Positions 23,901 to 49,400 of a DNA stretch of 64,000 bases are shown here, piece after piece. The stretch is from Acanthornis magna (taxonomy: Eukaryota > Chordata > Aves > Passeriformes > Acanthizidae). The position numbers were made by a program, and so were the translations under genes. Position 1 is the stretch's first letter, and the number at the start of each line of letters is the position of its first letter. The notes beneath the pieces were generated by a model that saw only the letters and a list, made by a program, of their open reading frames with translations, did no database searches and had not been told where the DNA came from. The stretch covers positions 4,771,001 to 4,835,000 of the forward strand of contig JAWUZG010000084.1 in NCBI GenBank assembly GCA_036785705.1, given 5' to 3'.

Positions 23901-26900
23901 AAGTTTTATAAAACACCTCTGAAAATAACCAATACAAGCTACTCCCTTTTGGTCTCCCATCTTTGTGTCACAGTACCTGTCCCCTTATATACAAGCAGTC
24001 CATTTGGCCCTCTGAAATCAATGGTATCTCCAATCTTCATGTTATCCAAATACTGGGACATCTTCCCACCTTCTGGAAACTTGGGGTTCACATTTTTGTG
24101 GTAGACCTGTAAAAACAAATCACCTGTATGTTATCAACCACTAACCTTCCTGGAGACAGTATTACAAACTGTCGAACACAATATGCAGGTCTGAAATTCA
24201 GCACCTGAGAAGGAAATCGAGGCAATTCTTTACTCTCAGTTACCTCTTGAGCCTTGAAACAGGAGGCAGCCAAAACAAGTAAAATGCGCTGTTGGGCACA
24301 TGTCCCTCTGCTCCCTGTAAACAGCCAGGATAGCAGGAATGGGTGGCAGGCAGATTATGTGCTGGTGCCCTCATTTCACTATTGCCTTATGTCACCTCGT
24401 TTCTTTAGCTGCTCCTTCTGAAAACAGCACCTTTTCCTCCTAAAACCTTCTGTGGAAGGTTGGGGGGGGGCAAGTGGAATTTTTCCCATTCTGTTGCTAA
24501 GCAACTAATGACCGGTACTTAAGGGCCATCTACACTCACAAAGGAGACAAAGCCTTTTCGCTGGCCAGGCAGAGGAACAAGAGATGGCAAGATTTGATAA
24601 GGGGACACTCACTCACTCACTCACTCACTCACTCCCTCGGGGCTCTTGGAGGAGAGAGCAGGGGGAAAAAGGCGGCTCTGGTTTTTTTTGGCTACAATTG
24701 CAGAAAAGGCCCGGTTTTGCACTGGTTTTTCTCTCTACCTGTTGGGTGAGTTCTCACTTGGGACGGGGGAGGACGGGATCCCGGTCCCTTCTACCCTCCG
24801 GGAGGGCGCAGTTCCCAGCTGCGCTGCAGCAGAACGAGACCCCTCGCCTGCTGCCGCTCCTCGCCCTGCCTGCTGCCGCTCCTCGCCCTGCCTGCTGCCA
24901 CCCCACGCCTTGCCTGCCACAGCTGCGGAACTCCTGCTGCCTCCTCTGCTGGCTGGCTCAGGTGAGCCCACCTGGCCGTTCCATCCCTTTGCTGCGCTTT
25001 GTCCATCTGCGCTCCACCCTGCTCCAGCCCGTCGGCCATTACGTGCGTGACACAGATCCAACCTCGCGCCACAGCGCCATCTGCAGCTTCCCGGGAGTCA
25101 TCGCACCTGCCCTGCTGGTCTAGGAGCCCAACAGCGCCCCTGCTGGCCGTGACCGTGACTGCACCAACCGGGAAAGTGCCTGACAGTTCAGGGACATTTG
25201 CCACCGAGTTTTTTTTGGTTTTGTTTACTGTTTTTTTGTTACTGATTGTTTACCTCATTATAGATACTAGTAAAAAAAACTCTTATTCCTTTTCCCATAC
25301 CTTTGCCTGAGAGCCCTTGATTCTAAAGTTATAATAATTTGGAGGGAAGGGGATTCACATTCTCTGTTCTAAGGAAGGTTCCCACCTTCCTAAGCAGACA
25401 CTTGTCTATCAAACGAAGACAGATTTTGGCGCCCAACGTGGGGCTCGAGGGCATTGAGAGAAAAAGGTGCAAAAGGAATAACAGTTTCTGGGAGACCCAT
25501 TTTTTAGTGTGCTGAACATAGAAACCTCATTTAGTGGCACCGTGTGGTCTAACATACCTTGGTTTGGCTGGCACATGCTCGTGGCCACATTTTTCCCATT
25601 TGCAGCTCCCTGTCTAAACATGGGTCCTATGACTAAGGTCGCGGTGGTTGTTATCCAGTTCTCACAATGGGTCAATAAGGTGAGGAATTTATGGATTTTT
25701 CACATCCTTTGGGCGGCGGGCACTTGGTTACAGGGCTTTAACACCATGAGTACATGTTTTTGGAGTCTGTTTGGTAATGATACCTTTTGTGAGGAGATGA
25801 CACCAGAGGGAATTTTTTCTCAACCCTTCACCCCTTTCTTTGGGCCTATCCTACCAGGGCTTGGAGGGTTCATATACTCTCTAAATGCTAATGACATCGT
25901 ACAGTGGTTGGCATTGCTGATAGGTCTATTCCTCTTTGCATCCCGAGAAAGGGGGAGACTGCCCTGGGTAACCACTCTAACAGCTGCCACAGGGACTAGG
26001 GATGTTGCCACGGAGATTAGGGATGTTGCCACGGAGATTAGGGATGTTGCCACGGAGACTAGGGATGTCGCCACGGAGACTAGGGATGCTGTCATAGAAA
26101 CTAGGGATGTTGCCACAGAAACTAGGGATGTTGCCACAGAAACTAGGGATGTTGCCACAGGGACTAGGGATGTTGCCACAGAAACTAGGGATGTTGCCAC
26201 AGGGACTAGGGATGTTGCTACAGAGCCCGAGGCTGTCCCAGAGCCTGAGAGTACCCCCAAACCTGACCCTGTCCCTGAGCCTGACCCTGCCACACGGCCT
26301 GACCCTGTCCAACAGCCTGCCCCAGAAATGAGCCAACCAAATTGGATGGAGGTAATAGAGGAAAAGATGCGTCAGGTGTTGAGGGAATACACTTCCTCAA
26401 CTGGTGGGAAGCCCTCTTCTTGCCCCACAGGGGAAGAGTCGGATGATACAGCAGCAGAATCCATGGACATTACAACCGTCCAGGTTCCAGCTGAACCTCA
26501 AGGGCAGTCACAGCCAGCAGCGGTTGCCCCTGTGCAGCGGAGGAAGTATAAGACCAAATCAGTACGCCCCGTTAATGATGATGGGGAACCAGGGCCCTCA
26601 CAACCAGCAGGGGAGCCTGAGCCTATAATCATCACCGAGTCCCTGTCGTATGACACTATCCGTACTCTGCACAATGACATTGTGCGGCGGAAGGGCGAGG
26701 CTTTCTCAACCTGGTTACTTCGGGTTTGGGACCGCATGGGCCCAGGCGTGCAGCTGGATGGTAATGAGGCCAGGAATTTGGGATCCGTGGCCCTGGACGG
26801 GGGTGTTGACAAGGTGTTCGTGAGGGAGGCAGGACCCATTTCTCTCTGGGAGAGGCTTTTAATGAGTGTAAGAGAGAGGTTTGTTCACAAAGACAGAATG

Positions 26901-29900
26901 CAGGAGAACTACCGTAGATTGCCCTGGAAGACCGTTGAGGAAGCGATCCAACGGCTGAGAGAAGTGGCAGTACAGGAGGTGCTTTTTGGGAGGGACGGAC
27001 AGCACGAAAATGATCCTGACAAGGTCAGGTGCACAGGGCAAATGTTGTGGAACCTGGCAAGTCTAGGGCCAACCCAATATGTCACCTACATTGCAACAAT
27101 TAATGCCGATGACAACCGTGAGACAGTGAGCTCTGTAGCTGACAAGCTCAGGCATTATGCAAGTGTGATCAATGGCCCAATGCAGGCTCAGATCTCTGCT
27201 GTGGTTAAGGAGTTGAAGGAAGAGATGAGGGAGATCAGGGAGGAGGTGAGGAAAAACAGTGTGGCACCAGTGAGAGTCACAGGCCCCAACACCAGAGCCC
27301 GACGTCCCCCAGCTAGAGAGAGAGGGTACACCCCACGAGCTGAGTTGTGGTTCTTTCTGCATGACCACGGGGAAGACATGAATAGGTGGGATGGGAAGCC
27401 CACTTCTGTCCTGGCAGAACGGGTGCGTCAGCTTAAGGAGGGCAACGCTAGCCGAGGGGGTTCTGCCAGAGCGAAGGTAGCCTCAGCTTCCCGTAGCCGA
27501 CCTGCTGAGTACAACAGAAGGGAAGATGTTGTGTCAGATTCCCTTGACGGTGGAATGTATGCCCAGGAAGGGAATGATAACCAGGGCTAGAGGGGCCCTG
27601 CCTCTAGCCAGGTAGAGGCATGGGAAAACCGTGTCTTTTGGACTGTGTGGATTCGATGGCCTGGTACATCAGAGCCACAAAAATATGAAGCATTGGTTGA
27701 TACAGGTGCGCAGTGTACCCTAATGCCATCAGGACATGTTGGGGCAGAACCCATTTCTATTGCTGGGGTGACGGGGGGATCACAAGAGTTAACTCTGGTG
27801 GAAGCCGAGGTGAGCCTGACTGGGAAGGAGTGGCAGAAACATCCCATCGTGACTGGTCCAAAGGCCCCGTGTATTCTGGGCATAGATTTCCTCCGGAATG
27901 GCTATTTCAAAGACCCGAAAGGACTCAGGTGGGCTTTTGGAATAGCTGCTGTTGAGGCAGAGGGCGTTAGGCAATTGAACACCTTGCCTGGACTATCAGA
28001 GAACCCTTCTGCAGTTGGACTCTTGAAGGAGGAGGAACAACGGGTACCAATTGCCACCTCGACAGTGCACCGCCGGCAGTATCGAACGAATCGAGATGCT
28101 GTGATTCCCATCCACAAGCTGATCCGTGAGCTGGAGAGCCAAGGGGTGGTCAGCAAGGCCCACTCACCCTTCAACAGCCCCATCTGGCCTGTGCGCAGAT
28201 CTGATGGAGACTGGAGATTGACTGTGGACTATCGTGCTTTGAACGAGGTGACTCCACCGCTGAGCGCTGCCGTGCCAGATATGCTGGAGCTCCAGTATGA
28301 GCTGGAGTCCAAAGCAGCAAAGTGGTATGCCACTATTGACATTGCGAACGCATTTTTCTCCATTCCTCTGGCAGCAGAGTGCAGGCCTCAGTTTGCTTTC
28401 ACCTGGAGGGGCGTGCAGTACACCTGGAACCGACTGCCCCAGGGGTGGAAACACAGTCCCACCATCTGCCATGGACTGATCCAGGCTGCACTGGAAAAGG
28501 GTGAGGCTCCGGAACATCTGCAATACATCGATGACATCATTGTGTGGGGGGGCACAGCAGAAGAAGTGTTTGAGAAAGGAGAGAAAATCATCCAGATTCT
28601 TCTGGGAGCCGGTCTCGCCATCAAAAGGAGCAAAGTCAAGGGGCCTGCCAAAGAGATCCAGTTCCTGGGGGTGAAGTGGCAAGATGGACGGCGTCAGATC
28701 CCCACTGAGGTCATCAATAAAATCACAGCGATGTCCCCACCAACCAACAAGAAGGAGACACAAGCTTTCCTAGGCGCCATAGGCTTCTGGAGGATGCACA
28801 TCCCTGAGTACAGCCAGATTGTGAGCCCTCTCTACCTGGTGACACGCAAGAAGAATGATTTCCGCTGGGGCCCTGAACAACAACAAGCCTTCGCCCAGAT
28901 CAAGCAGGAGATCGCTCATGCGGTAGCCCTTGGCCCAGTCAGGACAGGACCAGAAGTGAAGAATGTGCTCTACTCTGCAGCCGGGGGCAATGGTCTGTCC
29001 TGGAGCCTTTGGCAGAAGGTGCCTGGTGAGACTCGAGGTCGTCCACTGGGATTCTGGAGCCGAAGCTACAGAGGGTCCGAAGCCAACTACACTCCCACAG
29101 AGAAGGAAATTCTGGCAGCCTATGAAGGTGTCCAAGCCGCTTCAGAAGTTATTGGCACAGAAGCACAACTTCTCCTCGCACCCCGACTACCAGTGCTGGG
29201 GTGGATGTTCAAGGGAAAGGTTCCCTCTACCCACCACGCCACCGATGCCACGTGGAGTAAATGGATTGCCCTCATCACGCAGCGCGCCCGTATTGGAAAC
29301 CCGAATCGCCCTGGGATCTTGGAAATAATTACAAATTGGCCCGAAGGTGAAAACTTTGGTCTCACTGATGAAGAGGAGCAGGAACAGGTGACTCGCGCTG
29401 AGGAAGCTCCACCGTACAACCAACTGCCACAAGATGAAACGTGCTACGCTCTCTTCACTGATGGTTCCTGTCGTATTGTGGGGGCAAACCGAAAATGGAA
29501 AGCAGCTGTATGGAGCCCCACACGGCAGGTCGCAGAAGCTACTGAAGGAGAAGGTGGATCAAGCCAACTTGCCGAACTCAAAGCCGTTCAGCTGGCCCTG
29601 GACCTTGCTGAAAGAGAGAAGTGGCCAAAGCTATACCTGTACACCGATTCATGGATGGTAGCCAATGCTCTGTGGGGTTGGTTGGAAAGGTGGAAAAAGG
29701 CCAACTGGCAACGTAGAGGAAGACCAATCTGGGCTGCGGACGAATGGCGAGACATTGCCAGTCGGGTAGAGAAGCTACCTGTGAAAGTCCGTCATGTGGA
29801 TGCCCATGTCCCCAAGAGCCGAGCTAATGAGGAACACCAAAACAATGAACAAGTAGATCAGGCTGCAAAAATAGAGGTGTCACAGGTAGATTTAGATTGG

Positions 29901-32900
29901 CAGCACAAAGGAGAGTTGTTCCTAGCCCGATGGGCCCATGATGCCTCAGGCCATCAGGGCAGAGATGCCACCTATAAGTGGGCACGAGACCGAGGGGTGG
30001 ATCTAACTATGGACTGTATCTCCCAGGTGATCCATAACTGTGAGACATGCGCTGCCATCAAGCAAGCCAAGCGGGTGAAACCCCTGTGGTATGGGGGAAG
30101 ATGGACCAAATACAAGTATGGGGAGGCCTGGCAGATCGATTACATCACACTGCCTCAAACCCGCCACGGCAAGCGCTACGTGCTCACAATGGTAGAGGCC
30201 ACCACTGGGTGGCTGGAGACCTACCCTGTGCCTCATGCCACTGCCCGTAACACCATCCTGGGCCTTGAAAGGCAAGTCCTTTGGAGGCATGGTACCCCTG
30301 AGAGAATTGAGTCGGACAACGGGACTCATTTCAAAAATAGCCTCATAAACACCTGGGCTAAGGAACATGGCATTGAGTGGGTGTACCACATTCCTTATCA
30401 CGCACCTGCTGCTGGTAAAGTAGAGCGATGCAACAGCCTGCTAAAAACCACCTTGAAGGCTCTAGGTGGGGGGACTTTCAAAAATTGGGAACAGCATTTA
30501 GCCAAGGCCACCTGGCTAGTTAACACCCGAGGCTCCACCAACAGGGCTGGCCCTGCCCAATCTGAACCCTTGCAAACAGCAGACGGGGATAAGGTTCCAG
30601 TGGTGCAAATGAGAGGCATGCTGGGGAAAACTGTTTGGATTAATTCTGCCTTGAGCAAAGATAGACCCACCCGTGGGGTTGTCTTCGCTCAGGGACCAGG
30701 GTGTACCTGGTGGGTGATGCAAGAGGATGGAGAGACACGATGCATACCTCAGGGGGACCTCAGTTGGGGTTGAACTGCCCATAACATTGTGCCTGTATCC
30801 ATATCTGTATGTATATAATCAGAGTAATGCTTGTATGTATATAGTTTAAAGGCTTAAGTTCAATGTAATATGTTGGAATGGAAAAAATTCGGGGTGGATA
30901 ATGTGGAAGGTTGGGGGGGGGCAAGTGGAATTTTTCCCATTCTGTTGCTAAGCAACTAATGACCGGTACTTAAGGGCCATCTACACTCACAAAGGAGACA
31001 AAGCCTTTTCGCTGGCCAGGCAGAGGAACAAGAGATGGCAAGATTTGATAAGGGGACACTCACTCACTCACTCACTCACTCACTCCCTCGGGGCTCTTGG
31101 AGGAGAGAGCAGGGGGAAAAAGGCGGCTCTGTTTTTTTTTGGCTACAATTGCAGAAAAGGCCCGGTTTTGCACTGGTTTTTCTCTCTACCTGTTGGGTGA
31201 GTTCTCACTTGGGACGGGGGAGGACGGGATCCCGGTCCCTTCTACCCTCCGGGAGGGCGCAGTTCCCAGCTGCGCTGCAGCAGAACGAGACCCCTCGCCT
31301 GCTGCCGCTCCTCGCCCTGCCTGCTGCCGCTCCTCGCCCTGCCTGCTGCCACCCCACGCCTTGCCTGCCACAGCTGCGGAACTCCTGCTGCCTCCTCTGC
31401 TGGCTGGCTCAGGTGAGCCCACCTGGCCGTTCCATCCCTTTGCTGCGCTTTGTCCATCTGCGCTCCACCCTGCTCCAGCCCGTCGGCCATTACGTGCGTG
31501 ACACAGATCCAACCTCGCGCCACAGCGCCATCTGCAGCTTCCCGGGAGTCATCGCACCTGCCCTGCTGGTCTAGGAGCCCAACAGCGCCCCTGCTGGCCG
31601 TGACCGTGACTGCACCAACCGGGAAAGTGCCTGACAGTTCAGGGACATTTGCCACCGAGTTTTTTTTGGTTTTGTTTACTGTTTTTTTGTTACTGATTGT
31701 TTACCTCATTATAGATACTAGTAAAAAAAACTCTTATTCCTTTTCCCATACCTTTGCCTGAGAGCCCTTGATTCTAAAGTTATAATAATTTGGAGGGAAG
31801 GGGATTCACATTCTCTGTTCTAAGGAAGGTTCCCACCTTCCTAAGCAGACACCTGTCTATCAAACGAAGACACCTTCCCAGACACTCAGCCACACAACAG
31901 CTTTTTCAGCTTTCAAAGCACACTTGTAACATGAAGGACAGAGCATGCAAAAAAAAAAAAGCCTGGATTTTTGCCTAAGGACAAACTCTATCATAGAAAA
32001 GGATTAGGAAATCCAGAAGTCCTGGGATCAGATAATCCTGCATCCCCTAGTTTAAAAGATTTCCCTCGTTTGACTTATTTTCTGCTTAGAGCTGTTAGCA
32101 GTAAGCATTAGCAGCAGCATAGGCATCTTGAGGGAGAGATCAGTATCCATGCATTGCCAAATAAAAGATATTAGGGAAGTTTCTAAAGTATTGCCAGGGA
32201 AGTGATTCTCTCCTCCATCTATTCTACCTCTTCTATCCCTCAGTGCCACACAGCAGAGACACAGCATACAACTTACTATTCAAGGGCAATGTCAAATGAG
32301 TTGTTTGCCATGTAGTCACCTTCTTTGAAACAGATCTGATGAAAATGAAATTTAATGAAATTTGAATGAAAGAAGGTGGAGTTTGATGATTAAATCAAAA
32401 CAAACCATTTCACTAAAATTAAGTACTTGCATTCCTTTCAGTTAGCAACTTATCTATATTAAATGAAAACAAAATTTACCTTTATAATTAAATCAACATA
32501 ACCTTTTGTCTCATCACTGGAAATGGGAGTATAGGCTCGAATCACCAGATTACCATCGATTTTTGCAGAAAGGTAAACATGTTGGCCTAGGGAGAAAGAA
32601 TTACAATCTGATTATTTTTTTCACCCCTAGGGGACAAGAAAGGCCGGTATTGTAACCCACTACACATGCAATGACAGAGAAAATCTTTGCTATATAAATG
32701 CTGTATGAAATGTGCAGTTTCTTCTATTTTTTCAGCACAGGAATCTCCCAGGAAGTAATATGGCCCACATACAGTTTCAGGATCTTATTCCTAAATTCTT
32801 AAGAATGAAGTCTGGATAAACACAAGCAGTGCAGGGCACATCTCAGCTGGTTTATCATTTGTCTAGTTAATTCAGACAGTTCCATTACTCTTTCCCATAC

Positions 32901-40400: not shown

Positions 40401-43400
40401 TGAATTGCTGTACATGACTTAGCAAGTGTTGGAGGTTGGGGGGGGGGAAGTGGAATTTTTCCCATTCTGTTGCTAGGCAAGTAACGATCGGTACTTAGAG
40501 GACATTTTACTCTCACAAAAGAGACAAAGACTTTTTGGCTGGGCGGGCACGGGAACAAGAGATAGCAAGACTTGATAACGACACACGGACTCGCTCACAA
40601 GTCTCGGAGGAGACAGCAGTGGAAGGAACGGCTCTCCGTTTTTTTGGCTGCGACTGCAGGAAAAGAAAAGCCCGGCTTTGCACTAGTTTTTCTCTACCTG
40701 GTGGGTGAGTGCTCGGGGCACGAGACTCCAATCCTCTCTTCCCCTCCGGGAGGGTGCATCTCCCAGCTGCACTGCAGCGGAACGGGACCCCCGCCTGCCA
40801 CCACCCCGCGCCCTGCCTGCTGCCGCCCCCCCCACCCTGCCTGCCCCAACTGCGGAGTTTCCTGCTGCCTCCTCTGCTGGCTGGCCCGGGTGGGCTGACC
40901 CGGCCGCTCCATCTCCCAGCTCTGGGCTCTCTGCTGTGCCCCCCGTCCATCTGCGCTCCACCCTGCTCCAGCCCATCGGCCATTACGCGCGACACAGATC
41001 CAACCTCGCGGCACAGCGCCATCTGCAGCTTCCCGGGAGTCATCGCACCTGTCCTGCTGGTCTAGGAGCCCAACAGCGCCCCTGCTGGCCGTGACCGTGA
41101 CTGCACCAACCGGGAAAGTGCCTGACAGTCCAGGGACATTTGCCACCGAGTTTTTTTGGTTTTGTTTACTGTTTTTTTACCTTGTTTACTGTTTTTTGTT
41201 ACTGATTGTTTACCTCAGTATAGATACTAGTAAAAAAACTCTTATTCCTTTTCCCATACCTTTGCCTGAGAGCCCTTGATTCTAAAGTTATAATAATTCG
41301 GAGGGAAGGGGATTCACATTCTCTGTTCTAAGGAAGGTTCCCACCTTCCTAAGCAGACACCTGTCTATCAAACGAAGACAGATTTTGGCGCCCAATGTGG
41401 GGCTTGAGGGCATTGAGAGGAAAAAAAAAGGGTGCAAAAGGAATAACAGTTTCTGGGAGACCCATTTTTAGTGTGCTGAACATAGAAACCTCACTAAGTG
41501 ACACCATGTGGTCTAGCATACCTTGGTCTGGCTGGCACATTCTCGTGGCCACGGTTTTCCCATTTGCAGCTCCCTATCTAAACATGGGTCCTATAACTAA
41601 GGCTATAGTGGCTGTTATCCAGTTCTCACAATGGGTCAATAAGGTGAGGAATCTATGGATTTTCCATTTCCTTTGGACGGCGGTCACTTGGTTACAGGGC
41701 TTTAACACCGTGAGTACATGTTTTTGGAGTCTGTTTGGTAATGGTACCTTTTGTGAGGAGACGACACTAGGGGAAGATTTTTCTCAACCCTTCGCCCATC
41801 TCTTTGGGCCTACCCTACCAGGGCTCAGAGGGTTCATATACTCTCTAAATACCAATGACGTCCTACAGTGCTTGGGGTTGCTGATAGGCCTGTTCAACTT
41901 TGCACTCCAAGTGAGAGGGGAAAAGATACGTCAGGTGTTGAAAGAATATACTTCCTCAGCTGGTGGGAAGCCCTCTCCTTGCCCCACAGGGGAAGAGTTA
42001 GATGGTGCAGCAGCGGAACCCACGGACATTACAACCGTCCAGGTTCCAGCTGAACCTCAAGGGCAGTCACAGTCAGCAGCAGTTGCCCCTGTACAGCAGA
42101 GGAAGTATAAGACCAAATCGGTACGCCCAGTTGATGATGATGGGGAACCAGGGCCTTCAGAACCTGCAGGGGAGCCTGGGCCTATAATCATCACCGAGTC
42201 CCTGCCGTACGACACTATCCGTAATCTGCACGATGACATTGTGCGGCGGAAGGGCGAGGCTTTCTCAGCCTGGTTACTTCGGGTTTGGGACCGCATGGGC
42301 CCAGGCGTGCAGGTGGATGGTAATGAGGCCAGGAATTTGGGAGCCGTGGCCCTGGACGCGGGTGTTGAAAAGGTGTTCGTGAGGGAGGCAGGACCCATTT
42401 CTCTCTGGGAGAGGCTTTTAATGAGTGTAAGAGAGAGGTTTGTTCACAAAGACAGAATGCAGGAGAACTACCGTAGATTGCCCTGGAAGACCGTTGAGGA
42501 AGCGATCCAACGGCTGAGAGAAGTGGCAGTACAGGAGGTGCTTTTTGGGAGGGACGGACAGCACGAAAATGATCCTGACAAGGTCAGATGCACAGGGCAA
42601 ATGTTGTGGAACCTGGCAAGTCTAGGGCCAACCCAATATGCCACCTACATTGCAATGTTTAATGCTGATGACAACCGTGAGACAGTGAGCTCTGTAGCTG
42701 ACAAGCTCAGGCATTATGCAAGTGTGATCAATGGCCCAATGCAGGCTCAGCTCTCTGCTGTGGTTAAGGAGTTGAAGGAGGAGATGAAGGAGATGAGGAA
42801 GGAGATCAGGGACGAGATCAGGGAGGAGGTGAGAAAAAACAGTGTGGCACCAGTGAGAGTCACAGGCCCCAACACTGGAGCCCGACGTCCCCCAGCTAGA
42901 GAAAGAGGGTACACCCCACGAGCTGAGTTGTGGTTCTTTCTGCATGACCATGGGGAAGACATGAAAAGGTGGGATGGGAAGCCCACCTCTGTCCTGGCAG
43001 AACGGGTGCGTCAGCTTAAGGAGGGCAACACTAGCCGAGGGGATTCTGCCAGAGCCAAGGTAGCCTCAGCTTCCTGTAGCCAACCTGCTGAGTACAACAG
43101 AAGGGAAAATGTTGTGTCAGATTCCCTTGACGGTGGAATGCATGATCAGGAAGGGAATGATAACCAGGGCTAGAGGGGCCCTGCCTCTAGCCAGGTAGAG
43201 GCATGGGAAAACCGTGTCTTTTGGACTGTGTGGATTCGATGGCCTGGTACATCAGAGCCACAAAAATATGAAGCATTGGTTGATACAGGTGCGCAGTGTA
43301 CCCTAATGCCATCGGGACATGTTGGGGCAGAACCCATTTCTATTGCTGGTGTGACGGGGGGATCACAAGAGTTGACGCTGGTGGAAGCCGAGGTGAGCCT

Positions 43401-46400
43401 GACTGGGAAGGAGTGGCAGAAACATCCCATCGTGACTGGTCCAAAGGCCCCGTGTATTCTGGGTATAGATTTCCTCCGGAATGGCTATTTCAAAGACCCG
43501 AAAGGACTCAGGTGGGCTTTTGGAATAGCTGCTGTTGAGGCAGAGGGCGTTAGGCAATTGAACACCTTGCCTGGGCTGTCAGAGAACCCTTCTGCAGTTG
43601 GACTTTTGAAGGAGGAGGAACAACAGGTACCAATTGCCACCTCGACAGTGCACCGCCGACAGTATCGAACGAATTGAGATGCTGTGATTCCCATCCACAA
43701 GCTGATCCGTGAGCTGGAGAGCCAAGGGGTGGTCAGCAAGGCCCACTCACCCTTCAACAGCCCCATCTGGCCTGTGCGCAGATCTGATGGAGATTGGAGA
43801 TTGACTGTGGACTATCGTGCCTTGAACGAGGTGACTCCACCGCTGAGCGCTGCCGTGCCAGACATGTTGGAGCTCCAGTATGAGCTAGAGTCCAAAGCAG
43901 CAAAGTGGTATGCCACTATTGACATTGCAAATGCATTTTTCTCCATTCCTCTGGCAGCAGAGTGCAGGCCTCAGTTTGCTTTCACCTGGAGGGGTGTGCA
44001 GTACACCTGGAACCGACTGCCCCAGGGGTGGAAGCACAGTCCCACCATCTGCCATGGACTGATCCAGGCTGCACTGGAAAAGGGTGAGGCTCCAGAACAT
44101 CTGCAGTACATCGATGACATCATTGTGTGGGGGGGCACAGCAGAAGAAGTGTTTGAGAAAGGAGAGAAAATCATCCAGATTCTTCTGGAAGCCGGTCTTG
44201 CCATCAAAAGGAGCAAAGTCAAGGGGCCTGCCAAAGAGATCCAGTTCCTGGGGGTGAAGTGGCAAGATGGACGGTGTCAGATTCCCACCGAAGTCATCAA
44301 TAAAATCACAGCGATGTCCCCACCAACCAACAAGAAGGAGACACAAGCTTTCCTAGGCGCCATAGGCTTCTGGAGGATGCACATCCCTGAGTACAGCCAG
44401 ATTGTGAGCCCTCTCTACCTGGTGACACGCAAGAAGAATGATTTCCGCTGGGGCCCTGAACAACAACAAGCCTTCGCCCAGATCAAGCGAGAGATCGCTC
44501 ATGCGGTAGCCCTTGGCCCAGTCAGGACAGGACCAGAAGTGAAGAATGTGCTCTACTCTGCAGCCGGGGGCAACGGTCTGTCCTGGAGCCTTTGGCAGAA
44601 GGTGCCTGGTGAGACTCGAGGTCGTCCACTGGGATTCTGGAGCCGAAGCTACAGAGGGTCCGAAGCCAACTACACTCCCACAGAGAAGGAAATTCTGGCA
44701 GCCTATGAAGGCGTCCAAGCCGCCTCAGAAGTTATTGGCACGGAAGCACAACTTCTTGCACCCCAACTACCGGTGCTGGGGTGGATGTTCAAGGGAAAGG
44801 TTCCCTCTACCCACCATGCCACCGATGCCACGTGGAGTAAATGGATTGCCCTCATCACGCAGCGCGCCCGAATCACCCTGGGATCTTGGAAATAATTACA
44901 AATTGGCCCGAAGGTGAAAACTTTGGTCTCACCGACGAAGAGGAGCAGGAACAAGTGACTCGCGCAGAGGAAGCTCCACCGTACAACCAACTGCCGCAAG
45001 ATGAAACACGCTACGCTCTCTTCACTGATGGTTCCTGTCGCATTGTGGGGGCAAACCGAAAATGGAAAGCAGCTGTATGGAGCCCCACACGGCAGGTCGC
45101 AGAGGCTACAGAAGGAGAAGGTGGATCAAGCCAACTTGCCGAACTCAAAGCCGTTCAGCTGGCCCTGGACATTGCTGAAAGAGAGAAGTGGCCAAAGCTG
45201 TACCTGTACACTGATTCATGGATGGTAGCCAATGCTCTGTGGGGTTGGTTGGAAAGGTGGAAAAAGGCCAGCTGGCAACGTAGAGGAAGACCAATCTGGG
45301 CTGCTGACGAATGGCGAAACATTGCCAGTCGGGTAGAGAAGCTACCTGTGAAAGTCCGTCATGTGGATGCCCATGTCCCCAAGAGCCGAGCTAATGAGGA
45401 ACACCGAAACAATGAACAGGTAGATCAGGCTGCAAAAATACAGGTGTCACAGGTAGATTTAGATTGGCAGCACAAAGGAGAGTTGTTCCTAGCCCGATGG
45501 GCCCATGATGCCTCAGGCCATCAGGGCAGAGATGCCACCTATAAGTGGGCACGAGACCGAGGGGTGGATCTAACCATGGACTGTATCTCCCAGGTGATCC
45601 ATAACTGTGAGACATGCGCTGCCATCAAGCAAGCCAAGCGGGTGAAACCCCTGTGGTATGGGGGAAGGTGGACCAAATACAAGTATGGGGAGGCCTGGCA
45701 GATCGATTACATCACACTGCCTCAAACCCGCCACGGCAAGCGCTACGTGCTCACAATGGTAGAGGCCACCACTGGGTGGCTGGAGACCTACCCTGTACCT
45801 CATGCCACTGCCCGCAACACCATCCTGGGCCTTGAAAGGCAAGTCCTTTGGAGGCATGGTACCCCTGAGAGAATTGAGTCGGACAACGGGACTCATTTCA
45901 AAAATAGCCTCATAAACACCTGGGCTAAGGAACATGGCATTGAGTGGGTGTACCACATTCCTTATCACGCACCTGCTGCTGGTAAAGTAGAGCGATGCAA
46001 CAGCCTGCTAAAAACCATCTTGAAGGCTTTAGGTGGGGGGACTTTCAAAAATTGGGAACAGCATTTAGCCAAGGCCACCTGGCTAGTTAACACCCGAGGC
46101 TCCACCAACAGGGCTGGCCCTGCCCAATCTGAACCCTTGCAAACAGCAGACGGGGATAAGGTTCCAGTAGTGCAAATGAGAGGCATGCTGGAGAAAACTG
46201 TTTGGATTAATTCTGCCTTGAGCAAAGATAGACCCACCCGTGGGGTTGTCTTTGCTCAAGGACCAGGGTGTACCTGGTGGGTGATGCAAGAGGATGGAGA
46301 GACACGATGCATACCTCAGGGAGACCTCAGTTGGGGTTGAACTGCCCATAACACGGTGCCTGTATGCATATCTGTATGTGTATATTCAGAGTAATGCTTG

Positions 46401-49400
46401 TATGTATATAGTTTAAAGGCTTAAGTTCAATGTAATCTGTTGGAATGGAAAAAATTCGGGGTGGATAATGTTGGAGGTTGGGGGGGGGGAAGTGGAATTT
46501 TTCCCATTCTGTTGCTAGGCAAGTAACGATCGGTACTTAGAGGACATTTTACTCTCACAAAAGAGACAAAGACTTTTTGGCTGGGCGGGCACGGGAACAA
46601 GAGATAGCAAGACTTGATAACGACACACGGACTCGCTCACAAGTCTCGGAGGAGACAGCAGTGGAAGGAACGGCTCTCCGTTTTTTTGGCTGCGACTGCA
46701 GGAAAAGAAAAGCCCGGCTTTGCACTAGTTTTTCTCTACCTGGTGGGTGAGTGCTCGGGGCACGAGACTCCAATCCTCTCTTCCCCTCCGGGAGGGTGCA
46801 TCTCCCAGCTGCACTGCAGCGGAACGGGACCCCCGCCTGCCACCACCCCGCACCCTGCCTGCTGCCGCCCCCCCCACCCTGCCTGCCCCAACTGCGGAGT
46901 TTCCTGCTGCCTCCTCTGCTGGCTGGCCCGGGTGGGCTGACCCGGCCGCTCCATCTCCCGGCTCTGGGCTCTCTGCTGTGCCCCCCGTCCATCTGCGCTC
47001 CACCCTGCTCCAGCCCATCGGCCATTACGCGCGACACAGATCCAACCTCGCGGCACAGCGCCATCTGCAGCTTCCCGGGAGTCATCGCACCTGTCCTGCT
47101 GGTCTAGGAGCCCAACAGCGCCCCTGCTGGCCGTGACCGTGACTGCACCAACCGGGAAAGTGCCTGACAGTCCAGGGACATTTGCCACCGAGTTTTTTTG
47201 GTTTTGTTTACTGTTTTTTTACCTTGTTTACTGTTTTTTGTTACTGATTGTTTACCTCAGTATAGATACTAGTAAAAAAACTCTTATTCCTTTTCCCATA
47301 CCTTTGCCTGAGAGCCCTTGATTCTAAAGTTATAATAATTCGGAGGGAAGGGGATTCACATTCTCTGTTCTAAGGAAGGTTCCCACCTTCCTAAGCAGAC
47401 ACCTGTCTATCAAACGAAGACAGCAAGATGAAGGAAACAAGAAAAATTAGGTTCTGCTAAAGACAAAGCATGTAAATGTCACTATGCATCTTTTTATTTC
47501 CTCCAAATATCTCACTGAAAAAATCTAGGCCAACTGCAACCATTAAATATTTGGAGAACTTATGGTCCAAAAGGTACTCTCTATTCCCTTGAAGGAAGTA
47601 TAACTCAGACTGCCTTACCTGTTGTAACCTGTATTTCTTCTTCAGTCGTATCCATACTTACAAAATCTTCTTCACTAGTTGAATTCAAAGTATCTAAATC
47701 TAGCAAATGAGAGTGGTGAGTGTGTTAGCAGGATGTCTCTAGTAATACTTGTATTATAGAATCACTTTTATTTACTTATTTATTTTTGTAGAAGAAATAG
47801 ATTTCTGTTGTACAGATCTGTGCTATTACATCAGTAGTAAAGTACTATTTAAATTGCATCGCAAACAAACCTCTCAGGTTTTGCACACATTCATTGTTTG
47901 TCTTCACCATTCATTAGGCCTTTGTTAAATGCCTGAAGAGGTTCACAATCCATTTTTTTTCACTGAAACAATTTAGTAGATGGGTATCTCCTAGAGCAAA
48001 ATAATTCTGAGCAGCTGATTCACTGAAGTGCCCTTTATGCTGCCTCAAGGAGGCATTTTCCCAAGTTACTTCTATTACCTGTTACATGAACAAAGGAGAC
48101 TGCAGCTCTGAATCCTCCAAAAGTCTCTGTTTCGTCAGAGTGAAAGACAACCACCATCACAGCAGAGGAGCTTAGAACAGGTGCTGGTAGGGCAAACCCA
48201 CAGGACTTAACTAAAAATGAGAAAGCAAAGGCTCACTATAAATTAACAGCTACTTTGTAATTCCTCTCCATTTCAACAGTGGGCACACAATATTCTGTAT
48301 ATTCCAGCTCTCACACAGGAAGGTAAAAAATTACCATGACCAAGAGATAAGCAGACTGAGGCTGAAGGACTGCTCTATTATTCCTGGCAGCCTATCATGT
48401 TCAGTAATTACCTCATCAGAACAAGGAGTGTCTGGCATCATTCCACAACAGCCTGTTGCAGCACCCACACTCACAGGTTGCCATTACACATGAAACACCC
48501 CAGATACCTGATTTTCCCTAATCTAAGCACCAAACAAGGGCTGAAAACAGTTTTTTGGGATAGGCTTTCCTCTCATTTAATATAAGCCAAGTGACAAGAA
48601 TTACATTAATGCTGCTCTGGAGTGAAGAACAACTGGATTCTGAAAAGATGTCTTGGGTGCTTTGTGTGTGATCATTCTTATAAACCCAAATTACTGTGCT
48701 ATGTTCTTTTCTTCATTTACATGCATTCAGAACTGCATCACACACAGAATTTAAACACACAAAGATGGTTCTCTTCGACATGGCTTTGCCTGTGTTAGTT
48801 GAAAATAATTGGCAATACCTGCAAGAATTTTTCAAGGAACTGAAACTAGTACCTGTAACATCACCTGATACTCTAGAACTTGATTTTAACCTGGACAACA
48901 GAGCCAGTGAAAGTCATAAAAGAAATAGGCCATCCCCAAAATAAAAAATCAAAAGTCTAACCGATTTCCTCCGTTTTTATCACATCTTCGTACACAGTCA
49001 CTGCATCATAGGAACAATCTTCACCCTCTTCTACTTCAAAAGAGTGGTATGTAAGCTTTAAATAAAAAAATGGAAGAGTGAACCTTGTTGTGAGAGCCAG
49101 ATAAAAAAAATTCAAAGATCTACAGGGTCTTTAGTATTCTGAGTGATTCCTGCAAGGTTTGGTTTCTGTGACACTCAGACCTTTCACAGGTGATACATAA
49201 ATACTAAATTTGCTAGAAGAGTCTGTCATGATAAAATTTAACCCAGGAAATCCTATTTTACCATAACCTAAAGGGCAAATCCAAACCTATCTGTCTTTTG
49301 GGATGGAAAGTGATTCCTCTTAACTGCATCCAGCAGCATTTTTCACGCTCATGTTGTTGATGTTGTTTGTCCTTAGCAGCATAATTTTGTGTTAACTCAG

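Follow-up and report, generated by a model that had tools for sequence, protein, structure and literature searches.

The stretch of DNA analysed here, referred to as the window, comprises 64,000 nucleotides (nt) from the passerine Acanthornis magna (assembly GCA_036785705.1, contig JAWUZG010000084.1, positions 4,771,001 to 4,835,000 of the forward strand). It carries two complete endogenous proviruses in the same orientation, provirus A (24451-31872, 7.4 kb) and provirus B (40427-47422, 7.0 kb), whose features are collected in Table 1. In provirus A the open reading frames (ORFs) of gag and pol share one frame with a TAG between them, and with this TAG read over gag and pol together form an open frame of 1763 amino acids. 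Past the TAG, after 8 nt, starts a stem named S1, which has eight perfect pairs and a 6-nt loop. The original prediction had described this arrangement, i.e., a gag TAG, a pol that continues in the same register without an ATG and an 8-bp hairpin 8 nt downstream, and it was found to be exact at 27588-27620. Frameshifting is ruled out as gag and pol lie in one frame, and a separate initiation of Pol fails because the first pol-frame ATG, at 27723, comes only after the protease motif VDTG. From the sequence comparisons given below, gag and pol of this env-less, class III-like (ERVL-type) family of avian retroviruses are probably linked by a programmed UAG read-through signal.

Table 1. Features of the gag-pol junction and of the two proviruses (positions in the window; LTR, long terminal repeat)
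Feature	Position	Strand	Remarks
5' LTR of provirus A	24451..25421	+	TG...CA; 5-bp target-site duplication CCTTC
gag ORF of A	25482..27590	+	Stop to stop; first Met 25575; without CCHC zinc finger
gag stop codon TAG, proposed read-through codon	27588..27590	+	TAG in 99/100 loci
Spacer between stop and stem, 8 nt	27591..27598	+	
5' arm of stem S1	27599..27606	+	Inner 7 pairs complete in 97/100 loci
6-nt loop of S1	27607..27612	+	Pairing with 27660-27665 possible
3' arm of stem S1	27613..27620	+	Outermost pair 27599/27620 mismatched in 17/31 distinct rows
Competing helix H0	27585..27609 (27585-27593 with 27601-27609)	+	Contains the stop; CCTCTA common to S1; core complete in 29/32 rows
Competing hairpin H2	27614..27638 (27614-27623 with 27629-27638)	+	Preferred when A is folded; complete in 11/32 rows only
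Candidate 3' strand of pseudoknot stem S2	27660..27665	+	Complete in 28/32 rows; also codes a conserved protein motif
pol ORF of A	27591..30773	+	1060 amino acids; protease, reverse transcriptase, RNase H, integrase; in the frame of gag
3' LTR of provirus A	30902..31872	+	2 differences from the 5' LTR over 971 bases
5' LTR of provirus B	40427..41380	+	5-bp target-site duplication GCAAG
TAG, spacer and stem of B, identical 33 nt	43171..43203	+	Sequence match to A
In-frame stop in pol of B	43675..43677	+	Decayed copy
3' LTR of provirus B	46469..47422	+	2 differences from the 5' LTR of B

A perfect 8-bp hairpin with a loop of 3-10 nt that starts 4-12 nt after the stop was obtained in 40 of 20,000 dinucleotide shuffles of the 60 post-stop bases, and one that starts exactly at +8 in 1 of 20,000. 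Within the interior of provirus A a perfect hairpin at the same offset was found at 3 of 5420 positions, and the pattern of TAG, spacer and stem occurred twice in the window but not once in 100 shuffles. It had been argued that the signal is kept in both proviruses. The 33 nt are indeed identical in A and B, but by itself this is weak evidence, both proviruses being very young with two LTR differences each. The further statement that pol has decayed in one of them holds for B, which besides the in-frame stop shows a switch of the open frame near 44.85 kb.

With the original prediction a comparison of the TAG and the stem across the family had been proposed, and it was carried out in the window's own genome of 1.48 Gb. 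Candidates were collected with a DNA query (634, of which 40 were scored), a query from the pol region (2316, 115 scored), the junction-spanning crane protein model P0087 (2283, 115 scored) and a gag query (930, 93 scored). From the scored matches 100 junction loci were fetched, i.e., 28 of the 40 for the DNA query, 30 of the 115 for pol, 30 of the 93 for gag and 12 of the 115 for the crane model, and one of these loci, L008, is provirus A itself. The loci correspond to 32 distinct 145-base rows from several subfamilies, including that of the window with a gag of about 700 amino acids, the type of L029, elements with gag frames of 611 and of 537 amino acids, and older decayed groups. The junction stop is TAG in 99 of the 100 loci and CAG in the remaining one, L071, an old copy whose gag match contains another stop. 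The P0087 matches hold exactly one in-frame TAG and no other stop in 115 of 115 cases, and different registers of gag and pol were not seen among them. S1 has all of its inner seven pairs in 29 of the 32 rows and in 97 of the 100 loci, the exceptions (L059, L062 and L070) being decayed copies. Among the changed cells of these pairs 18 keep the pairing as G-U and 4 break it, while 7 cells are gaps; the changes common to many copies, 27616 A to G and 27619 C to T, preserve pairing.

These data also bear on the view that no regulated read-through exists, TAG and hairpin being shared through recent descent and Pol not being made at the junction. One or two young proviruses could have a common hairpin by descent alone, and read-through is here deduced from comparison. 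However, pol remains open in the family, with a frame of exactly 1060 amino acids in 97 of the 115 scored pol matches (counted by eye), A and B differ at 11 codons of 27591-28187, 9 of them synonymously, and TAG and stem are retained across gag subfamilies. This view is regarded as very improbable.

Synonymous sites directly behind the stop are constrained. In the nine codons that follow the TAG, from which position 27620 of the outermost pair was excluded (it differs in 17 of 31 rows), 6 of 285 third-position comparisons differ from the window versus 230 of 1040 at 27623-27719, and the first 28 rows alone give 6/249 and 223/908, respectively; the rows are related and no probability is attached to this contrast. 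The first and second positions differ equally in both intervals (6.1% in 27591-27620 as in 27621-27719, first 28 rows). The nine bases ahead of the TAG vary freely (40/235), and therefore the signal is located at or 3' of the stop. The common frame, the conserved TAG and stem and the synonymous constraint support the proposal of stop suppression instead of frameshifting, and from them we infer read-through. The observation itself is confirmed, and its interpretation is well supported by genome comparison.

A serious rival to UAG suppression is a spliced Pol, for which 27595-27612 would act as 3' splice site, giving an mRNA that skips the TAG and is joined to a gag-derived start, somewhat like in foamy viruses. 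With a pyrimidine-rich stretch followed by CAG and G, the segment resembles a splice acceptor. Several bird gene models (for example P0003, P0004, P0009, P0023 and P0024) start an exon there, although gene predictors favour introns that avoid stops. Against splicing, synonymous sites past the acceptor are constrained (27614 differs in 0 of 31 rows, 27617 in 1 of 31), the linker RGPASSQ ahead of the acceptor is constrained as well, and the first pol-frame ATG sits past the protease motif. We consider this explanation improbable.

The same stop site is present in proteins of other birds. Among 292 distinct retrieved proteins, 41 are Gag models that terminate at the homologous site, for example in NDNQG, NNDRC, KKDNQA or YHDQE, the patterns for such ends having been written after the ends had been seen; the named models of this kind are from passerines (swallow, thrush, white-eye, sparrow, cuckoo-finch and kiskadee). 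In fifteen fused models (crane, swallow, ibis and stork) the frame passes uninterrupted through the site, and the position of the stop holds Q (6), E (3), Y (4) or K (2), followed by RGPASSQ or a near variant. Two further fused models, P0135 and P0138, were not counted in this residue spectrum since their upstream part does not align with a gag end. A single base change leads from TAG or TAA to a codon for each of these four residues but from TGA to none of them, which rules out a TGA ancestry of the stop; the spectrum is as expected if stop-less copies are those that annotation can join. The nearest named proteins are all from birds (swallow, cranes, stork, white-eye, sparrow and thrush), and relatives sought in viral and prokaryote collections were not found.

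Several observations weigh against a read-through signal built on S1. The loci are related and some are arranged in tandem, so that the counts are not independent. The P0087 matches with their single TAG extend just 5-8 residues upstream of the stop, and the spectrum of the fused models fits TAA equally well as TAG. In none of the S1 pairs was a two-sided (compensatory) change found in the 32 rows, the changes that keep pairing being one-sided and leading to G-U. An 8-bp stem, as originally described, is not a feature of the family: 17 of 31 rows lack the outermost pair, and therefore the stem has 7 bp and starts 9 nt after the stop across much of the wider family. When 370 nine-codon windows were ranked in 11 of 13 aligned representatives (L065 and L071 excluded), the stop-adjacent window (2/99) tied for the lowest value with windows in the reverse transcriptase (RT) region near 28422-28479, which places it among the most constrained but not as the sole one. 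Finally, S1 does not win isolated-strand folding: it is absent from the minimum-energy folds, which in provirus A contain H0, H2 or instead a nested helix between the loop and 27659-27665.

Two side observations belong to these points. Several pairs of family matches on one strand are separated by about 6.03 kb (for example C236:6270881/6276914, C372:662426/668458 and C15:1018209/1024244), which would fit tandem proviruses with a common LTR or an assembly effect, some loci thus being non-independent. In the RT patch 28362-28506 third positions hardly vary between subfamilies (2/99 in windows 28422-28479), for which recombination, chance or another RNA element are possible causes.

The folding results lead to an alternative that overlaps with the favoured interpretation. 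Read-through would be real and the stimulator would not be S1 but H0, H2, the nested pairing 27607-27613/27659-27665 or the spacer sequence. Such non-S1 folds win the energy calculations on provirus A, and loop and partner 27660-27665 are complete in 28 of the 32 rows. H2, however, is ruled out as conserved signal by its completeness in 11 of the 32 rows only, H0 must be open when the ribosome is on the stop, and the partner strand 27660-27665 codes a conserved protein motif. A stimulator other than S1 is possible but unlikely. Folding of 27591-27690 as a whole beats all but 4 of 200 shuffles. In a search of 25400-31000 against Rfam with a permissive threshold two matches were obtained, both far below the gathering score and taken as chance.

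For a signal based on S1 the following course is proposed. Most ribosomes would stop at the UAG and release Gag, while a minority would decode it with a near-cognate tRNA, affected by the RNA structure about 8-9 nt downstream. The inserted residue is presumably glutamine, by analogy to murine leukaemia virus. S1 would be the active structure, perhaps held in place by base pairs between its loop and 27660-27665, and translation would proceed without change of frame across a short linker to protease, RT, RNase H and integrase, with an efficiency of read-through that yields Gag-Pol in a set proportion. The pairing of the loop with 27660-27665 would form stem S2 of an H-type pseudoknot. S2 stays a candidate because the partner strand codes a conserved motif and a 5-nt match was also obtained in 464 of 5000 shuffles.

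The relation of H0 and S1 suggests a further, more speculative model. UAGAGG occurs twice, at 27588-27593, where it holds the stop, and at 27613-27618, and both copies compete for CCUCUA at 27601-27606; 28 of the 32 distinct rows have the inner seven pairs of S1 together with all six core pairs of H0. The junction might, tentatively, be a ribosome-triggered RNA switch, with H0 formed in the free RNA and S1 formed when a ribosome terminates. The stop would be sequestered in H0 until a ribosome at the UAG melts this helix and frees CCUCUA, which could then pair with the downstream UAGAGG, so that S1, or a pseudoknot of S1 and S2, would arise at the right distance during termination only. If true, the strand common to the stop-sequestering helix and the stimulator would couple structure formation to termination in a new manner.

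Read-through in murine leukaemia virus is directed by a UAG, an unstructured spacer of 8 nt and a compact pseudoknot, the active fold being a minor species (PMC4178896). The junction analysed here resembles this system in the single frame, the UAG, the 8-nt spacer and the structure directly downstream, and S1 not being the preferred isolated fold is reminiscent of the minor active fold there (PMC4178896). It differs in that the murine virus has an established, compact two-stem pseudoknot with an 18-nt loop 3 (PMC4178896), whereas here the second stem is a candidate whose loop would have 39 nt and the stop lies within a competing helix. In two epsilonretroviruses for which read-through has been stated, a pseudoknot survey detected no such fold behind the gag stop (PMC3835772).

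The present family is not the first outside class I for which stop suppression is proposed, as XtERV-S and OVEX1 had already been predicted to use it (PMC8278194; PMC2717909). XtERV-S from Xenopus is likewise a class III element with one frame split by a stop and without a typical zinc finger; unlike here the stop is TGA, env is present, and no downstream structure is mentioned in the consulted parts of that report (PMC8278194). The chicken element OVEX1 shares with the present family the avian host, an amber Gag end, a pol in the same frame with presumed suppression, and the lack of zinc finger and dUTPase; in contrast, it is old, has an env-like ORF3 and was compared with the epsilon-like SnRV, the consulted parts mentioning no structural signal (PMC2717909). 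Same-frame gag and pol ORFs of avian ERVL elements were already published (PMC6523648). The songbird element TguERVL2_I_Ucy is similar in that its pol is common to elements with dissimilar gag; its stated length is 6.4 kb versus 7.4 kb (A) and 7.0 kb (B), a comparison made by description and not by DNA (PMC6523648). The term "stop codon" occurs nowhere in the text of that paper, and a read-through signal is not described in its consulted parts (PMC6523648). The way in which class III/ERVL elements produce Gag-Pol has for the most part not been settled: a structural survey marks the translational strategy of spuma-like ERVs (endogenous retroviruses) as "n.d." (PMC1224870), and in the consulted parts of a later MuERV-L paper the frame relation of gag and pol is not stated (PMC5930517). 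In the open-licence literature no title or start of an abstract was found that names an avian ERVL read-through signal, priority thus not being certain, and no paper was found there that joins ERVL with translational read-through in retroviruses. The young avian family with its many near-identical copies and several gag lineages provides a natural alignment and a compact, testable signal. If the interpretation is true, UAG suppression with a downstream structure extends to class III-like elements and is either older than class I or of multiple origins.

The assignment to ERVL, as class III-like, is based on traits rather than on a tree. Gammaretroviruses (class I) have a Gag with a CCHC zinc finger and an env gene. 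Neither applies here: gag of A and of B lacks CCHC, and between the end of the pol ORF of A and the 3' LTR there are 128 bases, and therefore env is absent. Foamy viruses make Pol from its own ATG, in another frame and from a spliced mRNA, which does not fit a pol that lies in the frame of gag with its first ATG past the protease motif. The traits of class III found are a Gag without zinc finger, the absence of env and the order protease, RT, RNase H and integrase. The aspartic protease of A scores under the Pfam cut-off, though the VDTG motif is present. The best PDB match of the integrase is from a foamy virus, and for the RT the RNase H-RT chain p80 gave 128 bits versus 122 for foamy Pr125Pol. 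HERV-L is named for its leucine tRNA primer site; this trait was not found, and 25427-25444, after the 5' LTR of A, is presumably a lysine-tRNA primer site. The gag relative P0269 from Lonchura striata bears the name Friend virus susceptibility protein 1-like; this agrees with the ERVL assignment, Fv1 being derived from ERV-L gag. A dUTPase after the integrase is typical of mammalian ERV-L, and none was detected by Pfam in the pol pieces. Not all class III elements require a dUTPase. OVEX1 also lacks one (PMC2717909).

The insertions of A and B are very recent because the LTRs of each pair differ at just two positions. A and B are not duplicates of one provirus, as the 5-bp target-site duplications are unlike and the LTRs are about 80-81% identical versus 93% in the aligned stretch 26357-31872. 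Across the subfamilies (24451-31872, 40427-47422 and L069-L088) a close pol is found with very different gag and LTRs, the gag frames having about 700, 611 and 537 amino acids, which suggests repeated module exchange around a common pol. The gag of A contains a 21-bp tandem repeat with 11.5 copies at 25985-26225, and a Pfam match of this repeat piece to a repetitive trypanosome protein looks compositional. Such a compositional effect could also explain the herpesvirus-like "envelope" match that was published for the gag of TguERVL2 (PMC6523648).
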